DNA from: Sediminicoccus sp. KRV36
GTDB lineage: Bacteria; Pseudomonadota; Alphaproteobacteria; Acetobacterales; Acetobacteraceae
Direction: 5' to 3'
Length of the DNA stretch: 64,000 bases
Assembly (NCBI RefSeq): GCF_023243115.1
Contig: NZ_CP085081.1
Location: forward strand, 1,612,001-1,676,000
Shown in pieces: positions 28,027 to 40,807 of the stretch. The notes under the pieces were generated by a model, which saw only the letters and a program-made list of their open reading frames with translations, was not told where the DNA came from and made no database searches. The first letter of the stretch is position 1. Each line of letters opens with the position of its first letter. A program made the translations under genes and the position numbers.

Positions 28027-28958
28027 TCAGCGACGCCTATGAACGCTTCACCGGCTGGCTGTTTGAAGCGCTGCTGCAGCCGCTGATGTATGAGGCCGGG
28101 CTGATGGATTGGGCCGATGAGGCCTTCCAATGGATGGATTTCTTCGTCTTTGGCGTGATCCAGGTGATCGTCGTGGCGGTGGTCTGCCTGCCGCTCGAAA
28201 AATGGCGCCCCGTCGAGCATTGGGACAGCCAGCGCCGCGTCTGGACCGATGTCATCTACACGCTGCTGACCCGGCTTGGCATCCTGCCGCTGCTGGGCTT
28301 CCTGGTCTTCTTCGCGGCCTCGGCCCGCATCGAGGGCTGGATTGCCGATTCCGGCTTCGTGCCCCCCACGCTGGAGACCTTCCTGCCCTGGCTGCGCGAA
28401 TGGCCGCTGGTGGCGCTGGCGCTCTATATCGTCATCCTGGATTTCGCGGAGTATTGGCGGCACCGTTTCCAGCACAGCGTCGGCTGGTGGTGGGCGCTGC
28501 ATTCCATCCATCACGCCCAGACGCAGATGACCTTCTGGACCGATGACCGCAACCATGTGCTGGATGATGTGATCGCCGCCGCCTGGTTCGGCGTGATCGC
28601 CGTGCTGATCGGCGTGCCGCCGGGGCAATTCCCCGTCATCCTGCTGGTGCTGCGCTTGGCCGAGAGCCTGAGCCACGCCAATGTGCGGCTCGATTTCGGC
28701 CGGCTGGGAGAGCGGCTGCTGGTCAGCCCGCGCTTCCACCGGCTGCATCACGGCGTGCTGAGCGTGGGCAATTCCGGCAAGAATTACGGGGTGCTGCTGC
28801 CGGTCTGGGACTGGCTCTTCGGCACGGCGGATTTCAACCGGGGCAGCTATCCCCGCACCGGGGACCCCGGCGCGCCCGCCGCCTATGTCTCGGGCGGCTG
28901 GTTCGCGCAGCAGGTGGTGGGGCTGCGCGAAGTGTGGCGCGCCCTCAAAGCCCGATAA
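28023..28958 (+). CDS. Fatty acid hydroxylase/sterol desaturase family membrane protein
   Basis: A 311-residue integral membrane di-iron protein. Its His motifs are HRFQH, HSIHH and HRLHH, the three-box pattern of the family. About five hydrophobic segments are seen. It uses oxygen and di-iron to hydroxylate or desaturate a lipid; the substrate is unknown. The start overlaps the deacetylase stop (ATGA). Its 3' end overlaps the chrA 3' end by 14 bp on the other strand. Confidence 0.88.
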   Translation: MISDAYERFTGWLFEALLQPLMYEAGLMDWADEAFQWMDFFVFGVIQVIVVAVVCLPLEKWRPVEHWDSQRRVWTDVIYTLLTRLGILPLLGFLVFFAASARIEGWIADSGFVPPTLETFLPWLREWPLVALALYIVILDFAEYWRHRFQHSVGWWWALHSIHHAQTQMTFWTDDRNHVLDDVIAAAWFGVIAVLIGVPPGQFPVILLVLRLAESLSHANVRLDFGRLGERLLVSPRFHRLHHGVLSVGNSGKNYGVLLPVWDWLFGTADFNRGSYPRTGDPGAPAAYVSGGWFAQQVVGLREVWRALKAR

Positions 28959-30255
28959 GCGAGAGCAGGAGGCCGGCCGCGGCCGTCACACCCAGCACCG
29001 GCACCACGCCGAGCTTGAAGCGGAACAGGCACACTCCTGCCAGCAGGCTCAGCAGCAGGGCCGTGGGTTGCAGGCTCCAGACATCCGGCAGGGCCAGGGC
29101 CAAGGGGCCATCCACCATCCGCCCGAAGATCACCCGCAGCCCGAACCACAGTGCCAGATTGGCGATGACGCCGACCACGGCCGCCGTGACGCCCGCCAGC
29201 GCGCCCTTGAGGCGTGGTACGTCATGCAGCTTCTCGACATAGGGCGCGCCCAGGAAAATCCAGGCGAAGCAGGGCAGGAAGGTGACCCAGAGCGTCAGCG
29301 TGGCACCGGCCACGGCGCCGAGAGCGCCGGAATCCCGCCAGCCCGCCAGGAAGCCCACGAATTGCAGCACAAGGATGAGCGGCCCGGGCGTGGTTTCCGC
29401 CAGGCCCAGCCCGGCCAGCATTTCAGGGGCTGAGAGCCAGCGGTAATTCTCCACCGCCTCCTGCGCCACATAGGCCAGCACGGCATAGGCGCCGCCGAAG
29501 GTGACGATGGCCATCTTGGAGAAGAACCAGGCGATATCGGCAAAGACTCCGCCCAGCGGCATCAGCAACGCCACCGGCCAGACCCACAGCGCCACCGCGA
29601 TCAGCCCGGCGCGCCGGGCCATGGGCGCCATGGCGGCGATGCGGCCGGGGTCCGCCGCCAATGCGGCATCGAGGGCCGCCGGCGCGCCCTCACGCGGCTT
29701 GCCATGGCCGCCGGCCGCGAAAGCGCCCGGCGCCGCATAGCCGATGGCGGCCGCGGCCAGCACCACCACGGGAAAGGGCAGGCCGAAGACGAAGAGTGCC
29801 ACGAAGGCCGCCGCCGCCAGCGTCCAGGGCAGGGCGCCCTTCAGCGCCCGCTTCGCCACCCGCAGCAGCGCCTCCACCACCAGGATCAGCACCGCGCATT
29901 TCAACCCGAAAAACAGCCCCGCGATCAGCGGCACATCGCCCAGCGCCGCGTAGATGAAGGAGAGCACCAGCATGACGAGCGCCCCGGGCAGGATGAACAG
30001 CAACCCCGCCGCGAGCCCGCCCTTCACCCCATGCATCAGCCAGCCCAGATAGGTGGCCAGCTGCATCGCCTCGGGCCCTGGCAGCAGCATGCAGAAATTC
30101 AGCGCATGCAGGAAACGCCGGTCGCTCACCCAATGGCGCTGATCCACCACCTCGCGCTGCATCATGGCGATCTGCGCGGCGGGCCCGCCGAAGGAGAGGC
30201 AGCCGATGCGGGCCCAGACCCGAAGCGCCTCGTTGAAGCTCGGCAATCCAGTCAT
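28945..30255 (-). CDS. chrA: Chromate transporter ChrA
   Basis: A 436-residue membrane protein of the two-domain CHR family, about 10-12 helices. Each half begins with a related motif: SFGGPAAQIAMMQ in the first and TFGGAYAVLAYVAQEAV in the second, plus PGPEAMQ and TTPGPLI. It exports chromate driven by the membrane potential. It overlaps chrB by 4 nt, so the two are coupled. Confidence 0.93.
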   Translation of the reverse strand: MTGLPSFNEALRVWARIGCLSFGGPAAQIAMMQREVVDQRHWVSDRRFLHALNFCMLLPGPEAMQLATYLGWLMHGVKGGLAAGLLFILPGALVMLVLSFIYAALGDVPLIAGLFFGLKCAVLILVVEALLRVAKRALKGALPWTLAAAAFVALFVFGLPFPVVVLAAAAIGYAAPGAFAAGGHGKPREGAPAALDAALAADPGRIAAMAPMARRAGLIAVALWVWPVALLMPLGGVFADIAWFFSKMAIVTFGGAYAVLAYVAQEAVENYRWLSAPEMLAGLGLAETTPGPLILVLQFVGFLAGWRDSGALGAVAGATLTLWVTFLPCFAWIFLGAPYVEKLHDVPRLKGALAGVTAAVVGVIANLALWFGLRVIFGRMVDGPLALALPDVWSLQPTALLLSLLAGVCLFRFKLGVVPVLGVTAAAGLLLSLIGL

Positions 30256-31067
30256 GCGGGGCGTCCCGTCGGCCAGTTATGGGTTTCCTGGCCCGCATCG
30301 CGGCACCAGCGGAAGAAGGCGTCATACAGGGCAAGCCCCGCGTCAAGCTGCGCCAGATCATCCCGGTACATGCGCGAGAGGCCGAGCGAGGCGGCGAGCA
30401 GCCCCGCCGCCTCGGGTGCCAGGCTGAGCTCGGCCGTATCGGCGCCGCGCACCAGAAGCGCCAGGTGATCCAGCGCGGGCAGCGCCAAGCCGAATTCCTG
30501 GATCATCACGTCAAAGGTGCAAAGCGGGCCGCGATGCGACCAGAAGACGCCCTCGATGTCGAAGGGTGTCGCACCGAAGCGTTCGGCCACGGCAGCCACT
30601 TCGGCGGGGGCGACAAAGAGGAAGACGGCCGCGGGGTCCACGAAGCGGCGGATCAGCCAGGGGCAGGCGATCCGGTCCACCTTGGGCCGCGCGCGCGTGA
30701 CCCAGAGCGTGCGGCCCTGCGCGTCACGCGGCGGCACATGCGCGGGCGAGACCAGCGGCAGCCCCGCTTCGGCCCAGGCGAGGAAGCCGCCCTCCAGCAC
30801 CTCGGCCCGGGCACCGTGATGGCGCAGCCAGGCGGCGACACCCTGGCTGAGCTTGAGCCCCTTCTGGCAGATCACCACCACATCGCGCCCCCGCCAGCTT
30901 TCCGCCCAGGCCGCGACATCGCGGTGGGAGGCGCGAAGGGCGCAGGGCAGGGCGCGCGGATCGGCGTCGAAATCCTCGGCCGTGCGGACATCCAGCAGGG
31001 CGGGCGCATCGGGCAGTCCGATGCGGCGGGAGAGTTGGCTCGGGGTGATGATATCGGGGGAGGGCAT
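30252..31067 (-). CDS. chrB: Rhodanese-ChrB fusion, chromate resistance protein
   Basis: A 271-residue protein. The N-terminal 110 residues form a rhodanese domain with C67 in the loop VICQKGLKLS. The C-terminal part is the ChrB-type domain, with WVTRARPKVDRIACPWLIRRFVD-like sequence. It probably senses or processes chromate or supports ChrA. It is the first gene of the chrB-chrA operon. The 128-bp gap to the OxyR-type gene holds divergent promoters. Confidence 0.88.
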   Translation of the reverse strand: MPSPDIITPSQLSRRIGLPDAPALLDVRTAEDFDADPRALPCALRASHRDVAAWAESWRGRDVVVICQKGLKLSQGVAAWLRHHGARAEVLEGGFLAWAEAGLPLVSPAHVPPRDAQGRTLWVTRARPKVDRIACPWLIRRFVDPAAVFLFVAPAEVAAVAERFGATPFDIEGVFWSHRGPLCTFDVMIQEFGLALPALDHLALLVRGADTAELSLAPEAAGLLAASLGLSRMYRDDLAQLDAGLALYDAFFRWCRDAGQETHNWPTGRPA

Positions 31068-31195
31068 GGGCGTGCATCCGGTCAGACAGGATGCGATGCT
31101 TGGGCCGAAACCTCACGGGGAGATCGCGCAGCCCCCTTGCGATTCAGCCTGCGGGCGCGAATGCTGCCTGTCAAGCAACGCCTTTGGGGACTCGC

Positions 31196-32149
31196 ATGAA
31201 CCTCGCCGGATTGAGCCTGCGCGACCTGGAATATATCACGGCGGTGGCCGAGCACCTGCATTTCGGCCGCGCCGCGCAGTCCTGCGGGGTGAGCCAGCCG
31301 ACACTCTCGGGCCAGCTGCGCAAGCTGGAGGAATTCCTCGGCGTGGAAATCTTCGAGCGCAGCCCGCGCGGCGTGCTGGTCACCCGCCGCGGCGCCGAAG
31401 TGGTGGCCCAGGCCAAGCGCATCATCAGCGAGGCGCGCCGCCTGTTCGAGGTGGTGCGCATCGGTGCCGAGCCGCTGACCGGAACGCTGCGCCTGGGCGT
31501 GATCTCCACGCTTGGCCCCTATCTGGTGCCCTTCCTGCTGAAGCCGCTGCGCGCCCGCTACCCGGAGCTCAAGCTGCTGCTGACCGAAGGGCATACCCGC
31601 GCCCTGGTCCGGCAATTGGAGGAAGGGGAGCTTGATGCGCTGCTGGCCACCAGCCCGATCGGCGAGGCGGAGCTGACCGAATTGCCGCTGTTCCGCGAGG
31701 AGCTGGCCCTGGCCGTGCCGCGCGACCACCCCCTCGCGCAGGTCGAGGTGGTGAAGCCCGAGGATATCCCGGTGGCCGAGCTGATCCTGCTGGCGGAAGG
31801 CCATTGCCTGCGCGAACAGGCGATGCAGCTTTGCCCCTCCCGCCTGCGGGAGGGTTCGGCGGATCTGCAGGCGGCGAGCCTGGAGACGCTGCGGCAGATG
31901 ATCGCGGCGGGTTCCGGCGTCTCCTTCATGCCGCAACTGGCCATCCAGGTGGGGGCGCTGCTGGATGACATGGTGGCGTATCGGCGCATCTCCGGCGGGC
32001 AGCACATGCGCGATGTGGCGCTGTTCCATCGGCCGAGCTTCGGCCGTATCCGCGACATCCGGCTGCTGCGGCAAACCATCGGCGAAATCCTGGCCGAGCA
32101 GAGTGCGGTGAAGGTGCACAAGCCGGGCCGCGTTCGGGAAGCCGGCTGA
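31196..32149 (+). CDS. oxyR: OxyR-type LysR family transcriptional regulator
   Basis: A 317-residue LysR protein with an N-terminal winged helix (HFGRAAQSCGVSQPTLSGQLRKLE) and an OxyR-type effector domain. The two redox Cys of OxyR are conserved with the same nine-residue spacing (C204 and C213 in GHCLREQAMQLC). It should sense peroxide by disulfide formation. It is divergent from chrB-chrA, with no catalase or peroxiredoxin gene beside it. The start at 31196 is the first ATG before the HTH. Confidence 0.88.
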   Translation: MNLAGLSLRDLEYITAVAEHLHFGRAAQSCGVSQPTLSGQLRKLEEFLGVEIFERSPRGVLVTRRGAEVVAQAKRIISEARRLFEVVRIGAEPLTGTLRLGVISTLGPYLVPFLLKPLRARYPELKLLLTEGHTRALVRQLEEGELDALLATSPIGEAELTELPLFREELALAVPRDHPLAQVEVVKPEDIPVAELILLAEGHCLREQAMQLCPSRLREGSADLQAASLETLRQMIAAGSGVSFMPQLAIQVGALLDDMVAYRRISGGQHMRDVALFHRPSFGRIRDIRLLRQTIGEILAEQSAVKVHKPGRVREAG

Positions 32150-32324: not shown

Positions 32325-32609
32325 TCAAGCGGCTGCCAGCCTGGGCGCCAGGTGCCGGATCAGCGCCGTTGTGCAATTCGCCTGATCGAGCGAGGCCGCC
32401 TCGGCCCGGGCCAGCAGCTCCGCGAGGCTGGTGCCGACCTCCTCGCCCGCGAGGCACGCCGAGGCTTCGCGCAGCGCCACGGTGGTCTGCCGCACCGCGC
32501 TGGCCAGGCGCAGCACGAGATCCGCGAGTTCCGCCGCCTCGTCCCGCGGGGGGCTGGGGCGGCTATTGACCAGCGCGGCAAAGAGCGCGGCATCAGGGGA
32601 GGGGGGCAT
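32325..32609 (-). CDS. Hypothetical small helical protein
   Basis: A 94-residue frame beginning MPPSPDAALFAALVNS, predicted almost entirely alpha-helical with heptad-like Leu/Ala spacing. The Met at 32609 has GGAAG about nine bases upstream; an ATG at 32633 is in the same frame. It lies 70 bp downstream of the flavoprotein gene on the same strand and could be the last gene of that operon. I recognise no family. Confidence 0.5.
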   Translation of the reverse strand: MPPSPDAALFAALVNSRPSPPRDEAAELADLVLRLASAVRQTTVALREASACLAGEEVGTSLAELLARAEAASLDQANCTTALIRHLAPRLAAA

Positions 32610-32679
32610 CCGATGGCTTCCGGCGTCATGCATGGCGGCAGAGTGGTGCGGAAGTCTTTGAGGAAAGCTTAAGCGCAGC

Positions 32680-34404
32680 CTATTCCGCGGCCGTCGCCAG
32701 CATGCTTTGCCCGGGCTTGAGCCGGGTGAAGCGCACCTCGCGCCAATCGAGCCTCACCGCGCCATCCTCCAGCGTGACCAGCGTGTGGCGCAGCCCGGCC
32801 GCGTTGTCGTCGGTCTGTGGGAAATCCTCCCGCCAATGGGCGCCGCGGCTTTCGCAGCGCGCTGTGCTGGCGGCGACGATGGCGCGGCTGGTCAGGATCA
32901 GGCTTTCCAGGTTCAGCCAATCGGCCCAGCTCATGTTGAAGCCGCGCGCGCCATCCTTCACGCCGCTCAGCTGCAACTCCGCCTCGATGGCGTCCAGCCC
33001 GGCGCTGGCTTCAGCCAGGCCCTTCGCATCGCGCAGGATGCCGGCCTTGTCCCACATGAGATCGGCCAGCGCGTCGCGCAGCGGATTGAGCGGGCGCACG
33101 GGCTTGCCGAAGGGGGCGAGGGCCGCGTCACGCGCCGCGCGCAGCGCGTTTTCATCGGGCGCTTCCAGCGCCCCGTGCCGGGGCACCCATTCGGCCATGG
33201 CATCGCCCGCGATGCCGCCGAAGACGGTGGAATTGGCGACACCATTGCCGCCCAGGCGGTTCGCGCCATGCACGCCGCCGGTATCCTCGCCGGCGGCGAA
33301 CAGGCCCGGCAGATCGGTGCTGCCATCGGCGCGGAAGACGAGGCCGCCCATCATGTAATGCGCCGTCGGCACGACGGGCACGCGGCCGCCGGCCAGGTCA
33401 AAGCCCATATCCGCGCAGCGTTCCACCATGCCCTTGAACTGCTTGGTGACGTTCGCGGGGCCCAGATGCCCCATCTCGATCCAGAGACCCCCTTCGGCAT
33501 TCACATTGCCGGCCTGGATTTCACGCTCCATCGAGCGGCTGACGATGTCGCGCGTGGCACGCTCGCCGCGGGGGTCGTATTTGTGCATGAAGCGCTGGCC
33601 ATCGCCGCCCAGCAGATAGCCGCCCGCACCGCGCAGCCCTTCCTCGATGATGGTGCCGGTCATGCGCGTGCCGGGGCCGGCCAGGACCCCCGTGGGGTGG
33701 AACTGCACCATTTCCATGTCGCGCAGGCCGAGGCCGACGCGCAGTGCCATCGCCATGCCATCGCAGGATTTGTCGCCCGAGGGGGTGTGGTATTTGTACA
33801 TGGTGGGCCCGCCGCCAGTGCCCAGCAGCACGGCCTTGGCCTGCACGAAGACGAAGCGGCCGGAGCGGATATCCAGCAGCAGCGCGCCGGAAAGGCGCGA
33901 ACCGTCCTGGCTGCGGATCAGGGCGAGGGCGCGGTGCTCCTCCAGCCGCTCGATGCCGCGCACCCAGGTCTGCTCGGCCAGGCGGTTGATGATCTCGATG
34001 CCGGTGAGGTCGCCCTTGTGGACCGTGCGGTCGAAGGTCTGCCCGGCAAAGGCCTTCTGATGGATGGTGCCGTCCGCGTTGCGGTCGAAGAAGCAGCCCC
34101 AGCGATTTTCCAATTCCCGGATGCGGCGCTGCGCCACGGTGACGAGCGTCCAGGCGAGGTCCTGGTCATTCAACCATTTGCCGCCATCCAGCGTGTCCAT
34201 GAAATGGCGCTCGGCGGAATCCCCGGCGGCGAGGGCCACGTTGTAGCCGCCCTGCACCATGCGCGTGCAGCCCGATTTGCCAAGCAATCCCTTCACCGCG
34301 ACGGTGACCTTCAGCTCCGGATTGCCGGCCTTGGCGTGGAGTGCCGCGAGCAGCCCAGCGCCGCCGGAGCCGAGGACGAGGATGTCAGTGGTGATGCGGT
34401 CCAT
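32680..34404 (-). CDS. Succinate dehydrogenase/fumarate reductase-like flavoprotein subunit
   Basis: A 574-residue SdhA/FrdA-type flavoprotein. The dinucleotide fold is LGSGGAG at 11-17. Active-site counterparts H236 (QFHPTG), R258, R285 (ATRDIVSR), H349 (PTAHYMMGG) and R383 (GANRLGGNG) are present. Two features are odd. The usual flavinylation motif SHT...QGG reads SGCTRMVQGG (44-53) with no His, so FAD is probably non-covalent. The substrate loop TEGxRGEGG reads EEGLRGAGG (254-262), changing the conserved Thr and a Glu. It should oxidise or reduce a dicarboxylate, perhaps not succinate. It is last in the operon, separated from the hydratase by a 57-bp repeat array. The Met at 34404 begins the family fold. 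Confidence 0.87.
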   Translation of the reverse strand: MDRITTDILVLGSGGAGLLAALHAKAGNPELKVTVAVKGLLGKSGCTRMVQGGYNVALAAGDSAERHFMDTLDGGKWLNDQDLAWTLVTVAQRRIRELENRWGCFFDRNADGTIHQKAFAGQTFDRTVHKGDLTGIEIINRLAEQTWVRGIERLEEHRALALIRSQDGSRLSGALLLDIRSGRFVFVQAKAVLLGTGGGPTMYKYHTPSGDKSCDGMAMALRVGLGLRDMEMVQFHPTGVLAGPGTRMTGTIIEEGLRGAGGYLLGGDGQRFMHKYDPRGERATRDIVSRSMEREIQAGNVNAEGGLWIEMGHLGPANVTKQFKGMVERCADMGFDLAGGRVPVVPTAHYMMGGLVFRADGSTDLPGLFAAGEDTGGVHGANRLGGNGVANSTVFGGIAGDAMAEWVPRHGALEAPDENALRAARDAALAPFGKPVRPLNPLRDALADLMWDKAGILRDAKGLAEASAGLDAIEAELQLSGVKDGARGFNMSWADWLNLESLILTSRAIVAASTARCESRGAHWREDFPQTDDNAAGLRHTLVTLEDGAVRLDWREVRFTRLKPGQSMLATAAE

Positions 34405-34416
34405 CAGATCGTCCCC

Positions 34417-34570
34417 GATCGCTGGAGGGCGGATGCCCGAAGGCGTGAATCGGCGGCGTGGCAAAGCCCCCCCGATCGCTGGAGGGCGGATGCCCGAAGG
34501 CGTGAATCGGCGGCGAGGCAAAGCCCCCCCGATCGCTGGAGGGCGGATGCCCGAAGGCGTGAATCGGCGA
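34417..34570. repeat. 57-bp tandem repeat, 2.7 copies, inside the dehydrogenase-hydratase operon
   Basis: Copies start at 34417, 34474 and 34531; the first two differ at a single base and the third stops at about 40 bp. The array fills nearly all of the gap between the hydratase beta stop and the flavoprotein start. The unit length is a multiple of three and each copy stays open in the flavoprotein frame. Each copy contains an imperfect inverted repeat around GGCGGATGCC. Confidence 0.95.
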
Positions 34571-34576
34571 CGCTCA

Positions 34577-35185
34577 TCATGCCGCTCCGAGCTTGGCGAG
34601 AACGGCGGCGCGGCGGGATTCAACGCTGGCCTGCACGTCGCGGTACAGGCTGCCGCCATGGCTATCCATGCCGACGATGAGCGGGCCGAAATCGCGAATG
34701 GCGAAGCGCCACAGGCTTTCGGGGTTCAGGTCATCCATGTCCACATCCTCGATGGCGGTGATCCAGGTGGTTTCCAGCGCCGCCGCACCGCCGATCACAG
34801 CGAGATAGCAGCCGCCCAATTCCTGGAAGGCGCGCGCGCTGTCGTCGCGCAGCCCACCCTTGCCGATGATGATGCGGACACCCTCGCGCTCCATCAGCGG
34901 GCGGGTGAAGCGCTCCATGCGGTCACTCGTGGTGGTGCCGATGCAGACGGCTTCGTAGCCGGCCTGGTTGGTGTTGCTCGGGTCCACCTTCCTCACATTG
35001 GGCGCCGTGTGGATGACAGCATGGCCGTTCAGGTCGAAGCGGGTGCGGCGGCCGCGGTCGAACATGTGGATCTGCGTGGCATCGCGGATGCCGAACAGCG
35101 TGTCCTGCAGGGTGACGGTATCGCCAGCGCGGAGCTTGCGGATATCGGCCTCGGTGCAGGGCATATGGAGCGTATGATGGGCCAT
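34577..35185 (-). CDS. Class I fumarase/tartrate dehydratase-like beta subunit
   Basis: A 202-residue protein matching the C-terminal domain of class I (iron-sulfur) fumarases, or TtdB. Characteristic pieces are LRAGDTVTLQDTLFGIRDATQIHMF and a GKGGL segment. AGGAG precedes the ATG at 35185; longer starts have no support. With the alpha subunit just upstream it would form a hydratase that adds water to a dicarboxylate double bond. Confidence 0.87.
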   Translation of the reverse strand: MAHHTLHMPCTEADIRKLRAGDTVTLQDTLFGIRDATQIHMFDRGRRTRFDLNGHAVIHTAPNVRKVDPSNTNQAGYEAVCIGTTTSDRMERFTRPLMEREGVRIIIGKGGLRDDSARAFQELGGCYLAVIGGAAALETTWITAIEDVDMDDLNPESLWRFAIRDFGPLIVGMDSHGGSLYRDVQASVESRRAAVLAKLGAA

Positions 35186-35232
35186 GGCGCTTATCTCCTG
35201 GGGGAAGGCGCGAAGCGACTTCGTGGGAAATG

Positions 35233-36135
35233 CTAGAATCCGATCACCACGCCCTCGGGCGTGAAGGTCGCACTCGCGCGGCGGGCGGAATGGCACTGCA
35301 CATTCACCGCCACGGGGTTCATGGTGATGTGCGTGGCCGCGATTTCCACATGCACGGCGAAGGCGGTGCTGTCGCCGCCCAGGCCTTGCGGGCCGATGCC
35401 GAGGGCGTTCACCGCCTCGCTCAATTCCACCTCCAGCTTGGCACCCTCCACGTCATCACAGACCGTCCCAAGCGGCCGCGTCGCCGCCACCTTCGCCAGA
35501 TGCATGCAGAGATCGCTGGTGCCGCCCACACCCACCCCCAGGATGGTCGGCGGGCAGACCTTGCCGCCGGCCTTGATTGCCGCATCCACCACGAAGCGCT
35601 TCACGCCGGACAGGCCATCGGCCGGGATGAGCATTTGCAGGAAGGAGCCGTTCTCCGAGCCGCTGCCCTTCGGGATCATCTCCAGCCGCAGCGTGCGCGG
35701 CGTCTCGACGAAATCAATGTTGATCACCGGCACATGCGCCCCGCAGGAGGAATGCGCGTTGATGCGCGTGATGGGATGCACCACGGAACTGCGCAGCGGG
35801 TGTTCGCGGGTGGCACGCTCGGTGCCGCGCGCGATGGCCTGCTTCAGCGCCCAGCCATCCAGCTCCACATCACGGCCGATCTGCACGTTGAAGATGGGAA
35901 TGCCGGTATCCTGGCAGAGCAGGTTTTCCGTGCGCTCCGCCACTTCGATGTTCTCGATCATGGTGGCAAGCACGGAGCGCGCCAGGCCATCCGTCTCGCT
36001 CGCATCGAGGCGGAAGAAGCCCTGCTTGATGTCATCGGGCAGGATCTTCAATGCGCGGATGTAAAGCAGCTTGGCCGCTTCCTCGATCGCGTCCGGTGTC
36101 ACGCGCAGTTTTTCCGGGGTGGAGATGACGGACAT
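35233..36135 (-). CDS. Class I fumarase/tartrate dehydratase-like alpha subunit
   Basis: A 300-residue protein matching the N-terminal catalytic domain of class I fumarases, or TtdA. It carries three Cys regions expected to hold the oxygen-sensitive 4Fe-4S cluster (LCQDTG, SSCGAHVPV, VCPPTILGVGVGG). Substrates in the family include fumarate, mesaconate and tartrate; sequence alone does not decide. It starts nine bases after the permease stop. Confidence 0.88.
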   Translation of the reverse strand: MSVISTPEKLRVTPDAIEEAAKLLYIRALKILPDDIKQGFFRLDASETDGLARSVLATMIENIEVAERTENLLCQDTGIPIFNVQIGRDVELDGWALKQAIARGTERATREHPLRSSVVHPITRINAHSSCGAHVPVINIDFVETPRTLRLEMIPKGSGSENGSFLQMLIPADGLSGVKRFVVDAAIKAGGKVCPPTILGVGVGGTSDLCMHLAKVAATRPLGTVCDDVEGAKLEVELSEAVNALGIGPQGLGGDSTAFAVHVEIAATHITMNPVAVNVQCHSARRASATFTPEGVVIGF

Positions 36136-36144
36136 GGCGTTTCC

Positions 36145-36945
36145 TCAGATGAGCAGCGAAAGACCGGAGACGAGCAGCAGGCTCAGCAGCACCAGGCGAA
36201 AGCCTTGGGCCGGCAGGCGCTTGCCCACGCGCAGCCCGAGCCAAGTGCCCAATAATAGCGCGGGCACGGCGGTGATGGTGAGCAGGATCGCCTCCTGCGT
36301 GAAAAATCCGGTGAAGGCGAGGGCGAGGATGGTGATGCCCTGCATGATGGCGATGAAGGGCTGCATCAGCGCCCGCGTATCCTGCGGCGGCATGCCCTGC
36401 ACATCGGCCCACATGCCGACCAGCGCGCCGACATAGCCGCCAATGCCGCCGAGGATGCCGGAGGTGAAGCCGATCACCGCATCGCTGCGCGGTGTGGCCT
36501 GCATGCTGGGGGACTTCAGCCGCAACGCGAGGCGCGCCATGCCGGGCTTCGTGCTGCCGCCGCGCCCGATGGTGCGGACCGCCACGCCCAGCAGGGTGAT
36601 GCGCACCAGCGTGTAGCCCGCATAAAGCACCAGCAGCAGCCCGACCCCCGCCACGACGGCCCGCGCCGGGCCAAGTGCGAGGATGGCGATTCCCAATGGC
36701 AAGCCCAGTGTCGCCGTGCCCACGTAAAGCCAGAGCCGCTGCCAGGGGATGTGATCCCGCACCGCATAAGTGCCGATGCCCTGGACGATCAGGCTGCCCA
36801 TCACCAGCACCGGCGCGACCAGTGCCGGGGCCATGAATTGCAGCAGCACCGCCGCCCCCACCAGCACGAAGGCGAAGCCCGCGATGCTCGCGCAGAAGGC
36901 CGCCAGCAGGCTGCCCGCCGAGATGAGCAGCGCGTCAGCCCACAT
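36145..36945 (-). CDS. TauE/SafE (TSUP) family membrane permease
   Basis: A 266-residue protein with about eight hydrophobic segments and a GILGGIGGYVGALVGM segment typical of TSUP transporters. Characterised members export sulfite or organosulfur acids. It overlaps the upstream anchor gene by 11 nt and sits in the middle of a dehydrogenase/hydratase operon, so it probably moves a substrate or product of that pathway. Direction and substrate are inferred only. Confidence 0.83.
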   Translation of the reverse strand: MWADALLISAGSLLAAFCASIAGFAFVLVGAAVLLQFMAPALVAPVLVMGSLIVQGIGTYAVRDHIPWQRLWLYVGTATLGLPLGIAILALGPARAVVAGVGLLLVLYAGYTLVRITLLGVAVRTIGRGGSTKPGMARLALRLKSPSMQATPRSDAVIGFTSGILGGIGGYVGALVGMWADVQGMPPQDTRALMQPFIAIMQGITILALAFTGFFTQEAILLTITAVPALLLGTWLGLRVGKRLPAQGFRLVLLSLLLVSGLSLLI

Positions 36946-37312
36946 TGAGCAGAAACAGGATCGCGGCGGCGATGGCGATACCGGCCGAGGCCGCGACCAT
37001 ATCCTTCTGCCTCGCCCGCCAGCCGAGGAACTCCAGCGCCATCACGCGCAAGCCGCCCGCCAGATGCAGCGCCAGCAGCACGACGAGGCCCCAGTCGGCG
37101 AATTTGAACAACGGCGTATCGGTCCAGCGCAGGAAGCCCTCCAGTGCTGCGGCACCGTGCAAAGCCTGGCCCAGCGCCCAGAAATGCAGGGGCAGGAACA
37201 GCGCCAGCAACAACCCCGAGATGCGGTGCACCAGGAAGGCGAGATAAGTCGGGTGCTGGCGGTCTCGGCCGGCGCGGGGGGGTGCTGGGCGCGCGGTCAT
37301 CGGCTCAGCCAT
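36935..37312 (-). CDS. Succinate dehydrogenase cytochrome b-like membrane anchor (SdhC type)
   Basis: A 125-residue protein with three membrane helices. The first contains HRISGLLLALFLPLHFWALG, the His-Arg-x-Ser-Gly pattern of SdhC quinone/haem anchors. The last part has LHLAGGLRVM. I chose the ATG at 37312, which overlaps the previous gene by 8 nt. It should link the dehydrogenase to the quinone pool together with the next subunit. Confidence 0.78.
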   Translation of the reverse strand: MAEPMTARPAPPRAGRDRQHPTYLAFLVHRISGLLLALFLPLHFWALGQALHGAAALEGFLRWTDTPLFKFADWGLVVLLALHLAGGLRVMALEFLGWRARQKDMVAASAGIAIAAAILFLLNVG

Positions 37313-37643
37313 GATACAGCCCCCAGGCCGCGCGGATGCCAAAGGCGGCGGTCAGCAGGCCGATGGCCAGCCAGAGCCCGTCCATCCGGCGCCCCCGCCA
37401 GCCCAGCCATTCGCCCGCGATATTGCGCAGCCCGATCGCCCCGTGCAGCCCCGCGCAGAGCGCGAAGGCCGCGTAGAAGCCGAACCAGAGCGTCGCACCG
37501 CGCGTGCGCTCCAGGATCTCGGTGGCGGAGAGGCCGCCGCGCACGGCGAGCATGATCGTCACCAGATGCACCACCACGGCGAGGCCGAGAAAGGCCGCTG
37601 TGATGCGCTGGACGGCCCAGAGCCTCGCTCCCGGCGCGCCCAT
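37305..37643 (-). CDS. Second small membrane anchor (SdhD type)
   Basis: A 112-residue protein with three membrane helices. It shows RITAAFLGLAVVVHLVTI in the first helix and HGAIGLRNIAGEW in the loop after the second, matching small SDH/FRD anchors with potential haem His. It begins one base after the iron-sulfur gene stop and overlaps the SdhC-type gene. Confidence 0.75.
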   Translation of the reverse strand: MGAPGARLWAVQRITAAFLGLAVVVHLVTIMLAVRGGLSATEILERTRGATLWFGFYAAFALCAGLHGAIGLRNIAGEWLGWRGRRMDGLWLAIGLLTAAFGIRAAWGLYHG

Positions 37644-37644
37644 C

Positions 37645-38376
37645 TCAGCGCCGCCCCAGCAGCGAATCCCAGAACAGCTTTCGCTTCAGCCCGGCAATCG
37701 CCGAGGAGGGGTCGAGGTTCTTCGGGCAGCGCTCGGTGCAGGATTGCGTGGAGTGGCAGGAATGGCAGCCGGCATCGCCGCTCACCGCATCCAGCCGCGC
37801 TTTGTTGCCGCCATCGCGCACGTCATTCACCAGCGTCCAGGCGCGATTCATGGCGGCCGGGCCCAGGTAATCCTTGTTCCAGGCCACGATGTCGCAGGAG
37901 GCGTAGCAGACGCCGCAGCCGATGCACTCGATGCCCGCATCGGCCTCCATGCGCTGCTTCGAGTTGGGCGGCACCACGCTGAATTCCGCCGGCACGCTGC
38001 CATCGGGCGCGTCCTTGGGCTGGAAGCTGCCCTGCGCCTTGGCCCATTTGTCGAAGAAGGGCGCCATGTCGGTGGCGAGGTCCCGGATCACCGGCAAATT
38101 CGCCAGCGGGCGGATTTCCACCACCTCGCCCGGGGCGGCCACGCGCTTCACATGGGTGCGGCAGGTCCAGCGGGCACGGCCATTCACCTCCATCGCGCAG
38201 GAGCCGCACATGCCCACCCGGCAGGCGAAGCGATAGGCGAGGTCCGGCGCCTGCTCGCGCTGGATCTGGGTGACGACGTCGAGGATGGTCTGGTTCTCGC
38301 GCGCGGGGACGGAGAAATCCTCCATCGCCCCGCCGGTTGCATCGCCACGCCAGATGCGGATTTTCAGATCGGCCAT
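37645..38376 (-). CDS. Succinate dehydrogenase/fumarate reductase-like iron-sulfur subunit
   Basis: A 243-residue SdhB/FrdB-type protein carrying three clusters: 2Fe-2S (CRVGMCGSC then a fourth Cys in RWTCRT), 4Fe-4S (CIGCGVCYASC) and 3Fe-4S (CHSCHSTQSC, then ERCPK). It passes electrons from the flavoprotein to the membrane anchors. The ATG at 38376 has GGGAGA upstream. It is the first gene of the operon, 25 bp from the inverted-repeat operator. The order B-C-D-permease-hydratase-A differs from the usual sdhCDAB. Confidence 0.9.
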   Translation of the reverse strand: MADLKIRIWRGDATGGAMEDFSVPARENQTILDVVTQIQREQAPDLAYRFACRVGMCGSCAMEVNGRARWTCRTHVKRVAAPGEVVEIRPLANLPVIRDLATDMAPFFDKWAKAQGSFQPKDAPDGSVPAEFSVVPPNSKQRMEADAGIECIGCGVCYASCDIVAWNKDYLGPAAMNRAWTLVNDVRDGGNKARLDAVSGDAGCHSCHSTQSCTERCPKNLDPSSAIAGLKRKLFWDSLLGRR

Positions 38377-38401
38377 CGCGTTCTCTCCCGATGGGGTGAT
38401 C

Positions 38402-38438
38402 CTGCCCTGGTCTTGTATAAGACACAAGACCAGGGCAG
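38402..38438. promoter_or_regulatory. Perfect 15+15 bp inverted repeat, probable GntR operator
   Basis: Arms CTGCCCTGGTCTTGT and ACAAGACCAGGGCAG are exact reverse complements around a 7-base spacer (ATAAGAC). The centre TTGTATAAGACACAA resembles GntR/HutC-type sites. It lies between the divergent starts at 38376 and 38466, so one bound regulator could control both units. The adjacent regulator at 40085 is the natural candidate. A TATAAG on the plus strand inside the site could be a -10. Confidence 0.85.
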
Positions 38439-38465
38439 ATTAACTTCACGAGCAGGAGACGCATC

Positions 38466-40088
38466 ATGCAGCACGAAATCCGCGGCGCCGACATCCTCTG
38501 GGGCGCGCTCAAGAAGGGCGGCGTCACCCGCGTCTTCAGCCTTTCGGGCAACCACATCATGCCGGTCTATGACGCTGCTTTTGAGCAGGGGATCGAGATC
38601 ATCCATGTCCGGCATGAGGCGGCGGCCGTGCACATGGCCGATGCCTGGGCGCGGCTGACGGGCGAGGTGGGCGTGGCACTGGTGACGGGCGGGCAGGGGC
38701 ATTCCAATGCCGTGGCCGCCCTGCCGACCTCACTGGCCGATGAGGTGCCGATGCTGCTGCTCTCGGGCCATGCGCCGCTGAACGAGTTGGGCCTGGGCGC
38801 TTTCCAGGAAACCCCGCAGGTCGAGATGGCGGCCCCCCTCTGCAAGGCGGCCTGGCTGGCGCAGACCACGGCGGGGCTGGCGGGGGACATCGCCCGCGCC
38901 TTCTCCATCGCGCGCAGCGGCCGCCCGGGCCCCGTGCATCTCTCCCTGCCGACCGATGTGGTGGAAGCCAAGGCCACGCCCGCCTTGCCGGCCGAGGCCG
39001 CCTATGAAGCCCGCCCCATGGCGCTCTCGGCCGAAAGCGCCGTGGCCATCCTGGCCGCCATTGATGCCGCGGAGCGCCCCTTCATCGCCGCCGGGCCTGC
39101 GCTGAACACGCCCAATGGCCGGCGCGCGCGGGCGGCGCTGGAAGCCGCGCTCGGCCTGCCCATCGCGCTGATGGAAAGCCCGCGCGGCCTGGGCGACCCC
39201 TCGCTGGGCGCCTTCGCCGAGATGCTGGCGCAGTCGGATTGCGTGGTGCTGCTGGGCAAGGCGTTGGATTTCACCCTGCGCTTTGGCCGCGCGCCCTTTG
39301 TGGATGCGAAGGCGCGCTGGGTGGTGATCGAGCCCGAGGCGAAGCTGCTCGCCCGCGCTGTGCAGGGCCTGGGCGCGCGCCTCGCCGTGACCGCCATGGC
39401 GGCACCGCTGGACGCGGCGGCCACGCTGGCCACCTGCGCGGCGCCGCATGCCAATGCGGCCTGGGCCGCCGCCCTGCGCGAGGCGATTGCGCATCGCCCG
39501 CCGGCCTGGGCAGCGCTGGCCGGCAAGCCGGGCGGGCCGGTCCATCCGGCGACGCTGGGTGCGGCACTGCGCCCCTTCGTCACGCCCGAGACCGTGCTGG
39601 TGGTGGATGGCGGCGAGATCGGCCAATGGATGCAGGCCTGCCTCACAGCACCCGAGCGCATCATCAATGGCGTGGCGGGCGCCATTGGCGCCGCACTGCC
39701 CTTCGCGCTCGCGGCGCGCGCGGCGCGGCCGGCCGGGCGCATCCTGGCGATCTGCGGCGATGGCACCTTCGGCTTTCACATGGCGGAATTCGACACGGCG
39801 CTGCGGCATGACCTGCCCTTCGTGCTGGTCGTCGGCAATGACGCGAAATGGAATGCCGAATACCAGATCCAGGCGCGCGACTACGGCGCCAACCGCGCCC
39901 ATGGCTGCGAGCTCGCGCCCGGCACGCGCTATGACCGCGTGGTGGAAGCACTCGGCGGCCACGGCGAATTCGTCGAGCGTGGCGAGGATCTGCCCGCCGC
40001 GCTGGAACGCGCCTTTGCCAGTGGCAAGCCCGCCTGTGTGAATGTGATGATCGAGGGGCTCGCCGCGCCCAATCTCCGCCGCGCATGA
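38466..40088 (+). CDS. Thiamine diphosphate-dependent enzyme of the acetolactate synthase/2-oxoacid decarboxylase superfamily
   Basis: A 540-residue ThDP enzyme. The catalytic Glu is E51 in VRHEAAAVHMAD; the ThDP/Mg motif begins CGDGTFGFHMAE and ends GNDAKWN. AGGAG precedes the ATG. It may cleave or decarboxylate a 2-oxo or 2-hydroxy acid, or act like sulfoacetaldehyde acetyltransferase, though it is shorter than typical Xsc. Its stop overlaps the regulator start, and it faces the dehydrogenase/hydratase operon across the inverted repeat, so they may form one pathway. Confidence 0.86.
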   Translation: MQHEIRGADILWGALKKGGVTRVFSLSGNHIMPVYDAAFEQGIEIIHVRHEAAAVHMADAWARLTGEVGVALVTGGQGHSNAVAALPTSLADEVPMLLLSGHAPLNELGLGAFQETPQVEMAAPLCKAAWLAQTTAGLAGDIARAFSIARSGRPGPVHLSLPTDVVEAKATPALPAEAAYEARPMALSAESAVAILAAIDAAERPFIAAGPALNTPNGRRARAALEAALGLPIALMESPRGLGDPSLGAFAEMLAQSDCVVLLGKALDFTLRFGRAPFVDAKARWVVIEPEAKLLARAVQGLGARLAVTAMAAPLDAAATLATCAAPHANAAWAAALREAIAHRPPAWAALAGKPGGPVHPATLGAALRPFVTPETVLVVDGGEIGQWMQACLTAPERIINGVAGAIGAALPFALAARAARPAGRILAICGDGTFGFHMAEFDTALRHDLPFVLVVGNDAKWNAEYQIQARDYGANRAHGCELAPGTRYDRVVEALGGHGEFVERGEDLPAALERAFASGKPACVNVMIEGLAAPNLRRA

Positions 40089-40807
40089 ACCCGCTGTCCC
40101 GCGCTCCGCTCTATGCGCGCGCGGAGCAGGCCTTGCGCGCGCGCATCGCGGCCGGCGAATGGAAGCCGGGCGAGGCGCTGCCGACCGAAGCCGCGCTGGC
40201 GCGGGAACTCGGCATTAGCCAGGGCACGCTGCGCCGGGCTCTTGGCGTGCTGGAAGCGCAGCGCCTGATCGAGCGGCGGCAGGGCATCGGCACCTATGTC
40301 ACCGAGGCGACGAGCGAGCGCGCGCTGTTCCACTTCTTCCGGGCCGAGGCGGTGGATGGCACGCGCGCCACCCCCACCAGCCTGCTGCACCGGCTGGATA
40401 CCAGGGCCGCCAGGCCCGATGAGCTGCGGGCCCTGCATCTGGCCAAGGGTGCCCGCGTGCACCGGCTGTTCCGCCGGCGCTTCGTCGGCGGGCTGTCCTC
40501 CATCGTCGAGGAGATCGCCCTGCCGGCGGCCCTGTTTCCGGGATTTCACCTGCCGCTGGGCGTGGAACTCAGCGATGAGCTTTATGTGCATTACCAGCGG
40601 CATCACGGCATCACGGTGATGCGCGTCGAGGAGAAGCTTTCGGCCATCGCGGCCGCACCCGCCATCGCCGAGGCGCTGGGCCGCGCGGCGGGTGCGCCCG
40701 TCATGCACATCACCCGCATCGCCTTTGACGTGATGGACCGGCCGGTGGAGCGCCGGCTTTCCTGGATGGAAACCAGCGCGCTGCGCTACGCGATCGAGTT
40801 GCGCTGA
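40085..40807 (+). CDS. GntR family regulator with UTRA domain (HutC subfamily)
   Basis: A 240-residue regulator: an N-terminal GntR winged helix (about 5-72, LPTEAALARELGISQGTLRRAL) and a C-terminal UTRA effector domain ending WMETSALRYAIEL. UTRA domains bind small metabolites and release the protein from DNA. The start overlaps the ThDP enzyme stop by 4 nt. It probably autoregulates this unit and controls the divergent operon through the 38402-38438 repeat. Confidence 0.9.
   Translation: MNPLSRAPLYARAEQALRARIAAGEWKPGEALPTEAALARELGISQGTLRRALGVLEAQRLIERRQGIGTYVTEATSERALFHFFRAEAVDGTRATPTSLLHRLDTRAARPDELRALHLAKGARVHRLFRRRFVGGLSSIVEEIALPAALFPGFHLPLGVELSDELYVHYQRHHGITVMRVEEKLSAIAAAPAIAEALGRAAGAPVMHITRIAFDVMDRPVERRLSWMETSALRYAIELR

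Follow-up and report, generated by a model that had tools for sequence, protein, structure and literature searches.

Which reaction sequence is carried out by an operon that combines the subunits of a succinate dehydrogenase (SDH) with a class I fumarase-type hydratase and a permease of the TSUP (TauE/SafE) family? The question is raised by a locus in a stretch of 64,000 nucleotides of the Sediminicoccus sp. KRV36 genome (the window), in which such an operon lies on the minus strand, divergent from a gene pair encoding a thiamine diphosphate (ThDP)-dependent enzyme and a GntR/UTRA regulator. We regard it as probable, at roughly three in four, that the operon is a respiratory module converting 3-sulfopropionate to sulfolactate, the sulfur being released as sulfite. 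Observed are the gene content and its conservation, a sequence signature of the flavoprotein clade, linkage and co-occurrence with the genes suyAB of the sulfolactate-cleaving enzyme, and the lack of a gene above the Xsc cut-off; from these we infer the substrate, both reactions and their stereochemistry.

The genes of the operon, with coordinates as window positions and families assigned from open reading frame (ORF) calls and Pfam/NCBIfam profile scans, are as follows:

37645..38376, minus strand: SdhB-like iron-sulfur subunit (TIGR00384, 198 bits against a cut-off of 88)
37305..37643, minus strand: SdhD-like membrane anchor (PF01127, 1.2e-07; TIGR02968 below cut-off)
36935..37342, likely start near 37312, minus strand: SdhC-like cytochrome b556 anchor (PF01127, 9e-14; TIGR02970, 59 bits against a cut-off of 52)
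36145..36945, minus strand: TSUP (TauE/SafE) permease (PF01925, 8e-21, 75 bits against 32.6)
35233..36135, minus strand: class I fumarase-type hydratase alpha subunit, fumA, proposed sulfoacrylate hydratase (PF05681, 289 bits, 3e-86)
34577..35185, minus strand: class I fumarase-type hydratase beta subunit, fumB (PF05683, Fumerase_C, 102 bits, 2.5e-29; ORF open to 35296)
34413..34569, no strand: 57-bp tandem repeat in 2.8 nearly identical copies, filling much of the gap directly before sdhA
32680..34404, minus strand: SdhA-like flavoprotein, proposed 3-sulfopropionate dehydrogenase subunit (PF00890 and PF02910)

The minus-strand order is B-D-C-permease-fumA-fumB-A, the anchor nearer to SdhB being the SdhD-like one. 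A preliminary description of the locus had named this gene set, its strand and the divergent ThDP-GntR/UTRA pair, all of which are confirmed by the ORFs and profile scans; its coordinates hold overall, except for the start sites of sdhB, fumB and sdhA and for the order of the anchors, which had been given as B-C-D. The sdhB gene probably starts at ATG 38376 with GGGAGAG upstream, and the cysteine motifs of three clusters are present in its product as judged by eye. The starts of fumB (near 35185) and sdhA (34404; database protein P0122 of 574 aa) are not those of the longest ORFs. The repeat before sdhA extends the ORF in frame, by which start calling can be misled. The TSUP permease, which gave no NCBIfam match at the limits used, is proposed to be a sulfite exporter, sulfite being the presumed anion.

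The preliminary description had left room for the operon being the only, and thereby the housekeeping, SDH of the organism. The genome is a single contig of 4.91 Mb with three PF02910 proteins: next to the window protein, a canonical SdhA followed by SdhB lies at 932-935 kb (sdhAB being what was seen of the canonical set), and a third protein at 3.35 Mb is taken for NadB from its weaker score only. Furthermore, another class I fumarase gene lies at 2.77 Mb, 4 kb away from fumC. With canonical sdhAB and both kinds of fumarase gene (class I and fumC) present at other genome sites, the operon is not the housekeeping SDH, and this candidate was rejected.

Flavoprotein clade and associated hydratases

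The window flavoprotein is only 34% identical to the genome's own SdhA. Its relatives were collected from eight annotated plasmid regions, out of 411 plasmid records with any match, and from a scan of species genomes that gave at least 578 loci. The best 80 of these were analyzed, and their genes were named by comparison with one fixed set of reference sequences. Identity amounts to 58-66% for seven plasmid relatives from Methylobacterium, Sulfitobacter, Pseudomonas, Paracoccus and the Rhizobiaceae strain NT-25 and to 46% for a Haloarcula relative. Among the plasmid matches listed (the best 40 of 411 for the window protein and the best 20 of 474 for the P. versutus protein), clade members reach at least 44% and all others at most 37%. 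The window flavoprotein stays below the cut-offs of all 25 NCBIfam models shown of 29 (SDH-, fumarate reductase- and NadB-type), the best model being the fumarate reductase TfrA (487 bits against 718; NadB, 330 against 453). The family is large: of the 8000 database proteins scored against it, 7999 have E values of at most 1e-150; the names shown for family members are fumarate reductase, FAD-binding protein and L-aspartate oxidase, and the window protein misses the cut-offs of those models.

An alignment of 90 clade members (the window protein, seven plasmid, two haloarchaeal and 80 scan sequences) together with the genome's canonical SdhA revealed a characteristic signature. The histidine carrying the flavin adenine dinucleotide (FAD), which is present in the canonical SdhA, is replaced by cysteine (GKSGC; Cys45 in the window protein) in 90 of 90 members, where one of the two scan patterns, GK[CS]GCTRM, includes the cysteine and selects the 80 genome loci at that site, the remaining ten sequences being free of selection. 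The active-site threonine is replaced by glutamate in all 90 (window Glu253). By contrast with these two exchanges, the catalytic arginine, both substrate histidines and the anion-binding arginine are kept throughout, and the glutamate of the active-site Thr-Glu pair is kept in 89 members and is aspartate in one. The residue roles are those of E. coli SdhA, whose residues (1nek) are seen in the alignment; the Mycobacterium alignment is off by one residue at the flavin site, the cysteine being at or beside the place of the histidine. Compared with canonical complex II, SdhB and the anchors are present and the covalent-FAD histidine and the active-site threonine are lacking. The window flavoprotein belongs to a distinct clade with a His-to-Cys and Thr-to-Glu signature.

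The hydratase beside it has both class I domains, alpha and beta, and three Fe-S cysteines. The alpha subunit passes the model PRK06246 'fumarate hydratase' (303 against 276 bits), and the beta subunit passes no cut-off among its eight models; the curated TtdA and TtdB cut-offs are not reached either. The window-type hydratase occurs in 69 of the 80 scan loci at an identity of at least 60%, and another class I type, with an identity to it of only 33-36%, is found in L060 and L095 and in six of the eight plasmid regions. Both types keep the three cluster cysteines and differ from the organism's own class I fumarase at the NTG motif (13 sequences, by eye). Moreover, in plasmid stretches of the haloarchaea Haloarcula and Natribaculum an ASL-family lyase gene, 70% identical between the two, replaces fumAB (L012:10275-13650, L118:8203-11653) and has sdhA-sdhB, TauE and a UxaA pair as neighbours; the large subunit of this pair is only 31-36% identical to SuyB. 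The presence of three kinds of hydratases beside one kind of dehydrogenase suggests that dehydrogenation followed by hydration is the conserved task of the module.

Linkage and co-occurrence with sulfolactate genes

The surroundings of the flavoprotein point to sulfonate metabolism. In the eight plasmid regions, TauE is present in seven, a YeiH-type 'sulfate exporter' in five, an Ldh-family (ComC-like) enzyme in three, and a molybdenum sulfite oxidase/dehydrogenase and a UxaA-type pair in two each. M. radiotolerans has a complete set of sdhBDC, fumAB, sdhA, ThDP, TauE, UxaA pair and symporter, together with a hydroxyacid dehydrogenase, an Ldh-family enzyme and GntR. The large subunit of its UxaA pair is 69% identical to the protein beside the annotated hpsN/hpsO of Cupriavidus pinatubonensis HN-2 and is therefore taken, with its partner, as SuyAB; further plasmid matches listed (H94 to H120) are less than 40% identical to it. 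SuyAB was identified in strain JMP134 of the same species, according to PMC12890257. In P. versutus, the stretch beyond the operon carries an hpsN-like hisD gene (60% identical to C. pinatubonensis HpsN) at a distance of 12 kb and, at 19 kb, suyAB together with a sulfate exporter gene. Out of 72,556 plasmid records, six are common to the SuyB set (n=13, at least 60%) and the flavoprotein set (n=15, at least 50% over at least 94% of the query). The Sulfitobacter plasmid stretch carrying the operon also encodes a 3-sulfinopropanoyl-CoA desulfinase (L008:24403-25575; 635 against 600 bits).

In the genome scan, the 21 nearest loci (L031-L051; flavoprotein 78-97%) all keep sdhB, fumA and sdhA; the TSUP permease is present in 20 and the ThDP gene in 19 of them. 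This conservation rules out a chance grouping. The other 59 loci (L052-L110; flavoprotein 66-70%), many of them on short contigs, contain suyB in 27 cases (threshold at least 60% identity to the M. radiotolerans copy), suyA in 26, comC in 29, slcC in 14 and the ThDP gene in 18, and one or more of the sulfolactate genes suyA, suyB, comC and slcC in 37, many loci being interrelated so that these counts are not independent events. Counting also hpsN (four loci, 80-82% identical to C. pinatubonensis HpsN) and xsc (three loci), a C3/C2-sulfonate gene is present in 41 of the 59; among the 31 loci for which 20 kb or more was fetched, 21 have one. On simple arithmetic, a stretch of 20 kb makes up less than 1% of a 5-Mb genome. 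The SuyB proteins of these loci are 70-95% identical to SuyB of C. pinatubonensis HN-2.

Several beta-proteobacterial loci have suyB inside the operon. With genes called by a simple codon score, the order in L100 is GntR (leftward), then suyA suyB sdhB sdhD sdhC TauE ABC fumA fumB sdhA slcC comC; L090 is arranged alike with suyAB in the other order, and L067 reads suyA suyB ThDP sdhB sdhD sdhC sulfatase binding-protein fumA fumB sdhA binding-protein comC, the binding-protein label being our own. This varying gene order suggests that the module was assembled repeatedly. Xsc-type genes lie near the operon in L053, L056 and L071; in L056, Xsc (1031 against 620 bits) is accompanied by an omega-aminotransferase (595 against 500 bits), a neighbourhood that would suit taurine or homotaurine use. 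A sulfatase gene (Pfam; L067:5814-7328), with similar genes in L054, L066, L072, L075, L083, L093 and L097, is located inside or near the operon in eight loci and might free the substrate from an ester.

In the genome of the window itself, suyA (55%) and suyB (73%, both compared with C. pinatubonensis) lie at 4.90 Mb, where their neighbours are a major facilitator superfamily transporter and a divergent GntR/UTRA regulator, the latter 38% identical to the window regulator. Of four Ldh_2 genes, the one at 454 kb shares 51-63% identity with the ComC proteins of the clusters, and no gene of the genome passes the Xsc cut-off. The dehydrogenase and hydratase genes of the proposed route are found in this genome together with suyAB and a comC-like gene. 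Moreover, among 150 Acetobacteraceae genomes the flavoprotein (E at most 1e-150) is encoded in 12, suyB (E at most 1e-90) in 19 and both in nine. Thus, suyB accompanies the flavoprotein in 9/12 positive genomes compared with 10/138 of the others (Fisher p 2e-7), and by genus in 7/9 compared with 6/93 (p 3e-6), both values being uncorrected for phylogeny.

Proposed route and competing explanations

3-Sulfopropionate is succinate in which a sulfonate replaces one carboxylate. The linkage of SuyAB with ComC/SlcC points to the sequence 3-sulfopropionate, 3-sulfoacrylate, 3-sulfolactate. The FAD of the SdhA-like subunit would oxidize 3-sulfopropionate to 3-sulfoacrylate, and SdhB and both anchors would relay the electrons to the quinone pool. 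3-Sulfoacrylate would then be hydrated to 3-sulfolactate by the FumAB-like enzyme, with water added at the carbon next to the carboxylate, i.e., beta to the sulfonate. Hydration with the hand of L-malate would yield (R)-sulfolactate, since sulfur changes the Cahn-Ingold-Prelog priority; this is the enantiomer cleaved by SuyAB, and the other one is invertible by ComC and SlcC, as described in PMC12421959. SuyAB, whose genes lie elsewhere in the window genome but within or adjacent to the operon in many relatives, would split sulfolactate into pyruvate and sulfite, and the latter could leave the cell via the TSUP permease. The general chemistry put forward in the preliminary description, i.e., FAD-dependent dehydrogenation, Fe-S-dependent hydration and handling of sulfite, fits the gene neighbourhoods.

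The divergent gene pair, the region between the two transcription units and the downstream end of the operon comprise the following features:

38466..40088, plus strand: ThDP-dependent enzyme, 2-hydroxyacyl-CoA lyase/benzaldehyde lyase-like (PF02776/PF02775)
40085..40807, plus strand: GntR/UTRA regulator (PF07702, PF00392)
38402..38438, no strand: perfect palindrome with 15-bp arms and a 7-bp spacer, read between the divergent sdhB and ThDP starts
32325..32633, minus strand: ORF of 102 aa, 47 bp downstream of sdhA

The stop of the ThDP gene overlaps the start of the GntR/UTRA gene. The solved structures closest to the ThDP enzyme are 2-hydroxyacyl-CoA lyase (7pt1 being the best) and benzaldehyde lyase, and it passes no cut-off among the 25 NCBIfam models shown of 51. 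It shares the ThDP fold family with Xsc, but an assignment as Xsc was rejected, its score of 168 bits being far below the TIGR03457 cut-off of 676. Plain formation of sulfoacetaldehyde by this enzyme is disfavoured because an Xsc over the cut-off is lacking in the window genome; as a candidate function, the enzyme might be a decarboxylase of sulfopyruvate or 2-oxo-4-sulfobutyrate. A fusion to a further domain was considered for nine database relatives of 772-773 aa (P0089, P0090, P0093, P0096, P0097, P0100, P0103, P0105 and P0107) and rejected: the match to the ThDP enzyme is confined to their C-terminal parts, and in each of the nine the first 225 residues correspond to minus-strand frames overlapping sdhB in L045-L047, so that these entries are over-long gene calls antisense over sdhB with no extra domain.

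Between the sdhB and ThDP start codons, which are separated by 89 bases, the palindrome is a putative operator of the UTRA regulator. Its inner part, GTCTTGT-N7-ACAAGAC, recurs at the sdhB/ThDP junction in six of the 21 nearest loci (L031, L032, L033, L035, L040 and L048), i.e., in six of the ten with a UTRA gene and in none of the 11 without. An exact match to the 14-base core occurs once in the genome, and not at suyAB; a shared operator of the operon and suyAB was rejected, as core copies with up to two mismatches number five compared with eight in the backwards control. A promoter scan gave no promoter-like site, and terminator-like sites number six compared with 3.9 expected. The 102-aa ORF matched no family in the Pfam/NCBIfam scans and has counterparts in L033 (74% identical) and L051 (49%). 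Downstream, window positions 28945-32149 hold a LysR gene together with genes of the chromate-transporter and the rhodanese/chromate-resistance-like type; by clustering, a gene of the chromate-transporter type is located near the operon in 13 loci.

Several observations weigh against the 3-sulfopropionate route. In the flanks fetched for the 21 nearest loci, no match to suyA, suyB, comC or slcC reached the thresholds used, and the sulfonate genes sought were not found in 18 of the 59 other loci, ten of which have at least 20 kb fetched. In Acetobacteraceae, three of the 12 flavoprotein-positive genomes are without suyB over the threshold, and the flavoprotein is absent from 10 of the 19 suyB-positive ones. 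The window operon contains no transporter dedicated to the uptake of 3-sulfopropionate. The route has no place for the ThDP gene, which is dispensable to it since the fetched stretches of L090 and L100 hold no such gene, and the operator-like palindrome is not common to suyAB. The Thr-to-Glu exchange sets an acid beside the supposed sulfonate, which is unexplained. XcbC forms sulfoacrylate in coenzyme M synthesis, and by profile score the haloarchaeal lyase appears closer to ArgH (323 bits, passing the cut-off of 279.5) than to XcbC (257 and 260 bits against 575). Finally, conversion of sulfosuccinate to sulfomalate with subsequent cleavage by SuyAB would give the same gene content.

A wider interpretation, which we consider rather unlikely, would give the ThDP enzyme a function: the genes would form a sulfonate copy of an arm of the Krebs cycle, occurring in bacteria and some haloarchaea, in which the complex II paralogue with its flavin-site cysteine would respire 3-sulfopropionate, the fumarase paralogue would form sulfolactate, ComC would make sulfopyruvate and the ThDP enzyme would act as a new desulfonating decarboxylase, converting sulfopyruvate directly to CO2, sulfite and an acetyl unit, so that the intermediate of Xsc would be reached by decarboxylation and not from sulfoacetaldehyde. 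In favour of such a decarboxylase, P. seriniphilus has a 46% identical ThDP gene next to TauE and a LysR gene at a site separate from the operon, and the window genome is without Xsc over the cut-off. Furthermore, slcC is absent from nine of 12 loci with both comC and ThDP, a weak sign as it is also absent from 10 of 17 comC-positive loci without ThDP, several of them on short contigs.

It is improbable that the operon serves a non-sulfonate dicarboxylate such as methylsuccinate/mesaconate, tartrate or a tricarballylate-like compound and neighbours sulfonate genes by chance. Class I fumarases can act on mesaconate, and the best NCBIfam model for fumB is that of the L(+)-tartrate dehydratase beta subunit, though below its cut-off; against these stand suyB inside the operon in beta-proteobacteria, the co-occurrence across the 150 genomes and the recurrent TauE and sulfate/sulfite genes.

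The substrate favoured by the preliminary description was sulfosuccinate, which would be dehydrogenated to sulfofumarate and hydrated, sulfite being lost spontaneously or by SuyAB to give oxaloacetate. The sulfonate context with sulfite exporters agrees with this, and the collapse upon hydration seems chemically sound. However, the version with spontaneous release finds no support, because the linked desulfonating enzyme is SuyAB, flanked by ComC/SlcC; these sulfolactate enzymes would be unneeded if sulfite fell off by itself. Moreover, a branched trianion would suit a succinate-type pocket less well than 3-sulfopropionate, and no open-access paper was found joining sulfosuccinate, sulfolactate and sulfite. 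Overall, sulfosuccinate appears quite improbable.

Still more doubtful is an operon running toward 3-sulfopropionate as quinol-linked sulfoacrylate reductase or serving as auxiliary to sulfolactate metabolism. The histidine for covalent flavin, absent here, is also absent in enzymes that mainly reduce, as in E. coli FrdA mutants, and the best-scoring model is TfrA. Furthermore, a fumarate/tartrate cluster with TauE is induced on sulfofucose, which yields sulfolactate, according to PMC12421959; this cluster may be the same operon. On the other side, suyAB in the same operon would drain sulfolactate, and genes for ATP-binding cassette or tripartite tricarboxylate transporter (TTT)-type binding proteins (labels partly our own) lie inside operons. 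The carrier taxa are presumably mostly aerobic, which also counts against a reductase.

An extra copy of the housekeeping SDH and fumarase, for which family membership speaks, can be set aside in view of the canonical copies elsewhere, the low identity to the organism's own SdhA and the changed flavin and substrate residues.

Comparison with known systems

The window complex resembles complex II (E. coli SdhCDAB, 1nek; Mycobacterium Sdh1, 7d6v) in its FAD_binding_2 and Succ_DH_flav_C domains, SdhB, two anchors, the catalytic arginine and the His/His/Arg substrate site, but differs in the gene order B-D-C-x-fumAB-A, the FAD histidine changed to cysteine and the active-site threonine changed to glutamate. 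Similarly, the hydratase shares both Pfam domains, the three cluster cysteines and the CxDTG motif with the two-subunit class I (4Fe-4S) fumarase and L(+)-tartrate dehydratase, but the NTG-type motif of the genome's own class I fumarase is replaced in it and it remains below the TtdA/TtdB cut-offs. Each of the protein families has been described before; what is new, to the extent that open-access searches show, is their combination, the exchange at the flavin site and the assignment. In the open-access literature, with subscription papers mostly outside the search, no paper was found that names genes of the 3-sulfopropionate route, joins 3-sulfopropionate, dehydrogenase, fumarase and sulfolactate, joins SuyAB with fumarate hydratase and succinate dehydrogenase, treats sulfosuccinate degradation, or combines sulfoacrylic with coenzyme M.

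3-Sulfopropionate arises from the fermentation of sulfoquinovose and 2,3-dihydroxypropane-1-sulfonate (DHPS) and from homotaurine use, according to PMC11489063, in which its bacterial degradation is called previously unreported apart from a thesis. The thesis cited there concerns Roseovarius nubinhibens, for which the sequence homotaurine, 3-sulfopropionate, sulfoacrylate, sulfolactate is given; this is exactly the route predicted here, its genes and enzymes being unnamed in the cited account. No record named Roseovarius nubinhibens is among the best 80 loci of the genome scan. Bilophila wadsworthia also breaks down 3-sulfopropionate, using it as electron acceptor (PMC11489063) by a mechanism called unclear in PMC12890257, but does so anaerobically and with H2S as end product. 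If the 3-sulfopropionate reading is true, genes would be assigned to an aerobic route and would provide a marker for genomes and metagenomes, and a relative of complex II with an altered flavin site would feed electrons from a sulfonate into respiration. The systems with SuyAB and ComC/SlcC in Paracoccus, Chromohalobacter and Cupriavidus have homologues forming the lower half of the route in many loci described here. Whereas the known SuyAB systems, in the accounts available, start from cysteate, DHPS, sulfolactaldehyde or sulfolactate, here they would be fed by the SDH/fumarase pair.

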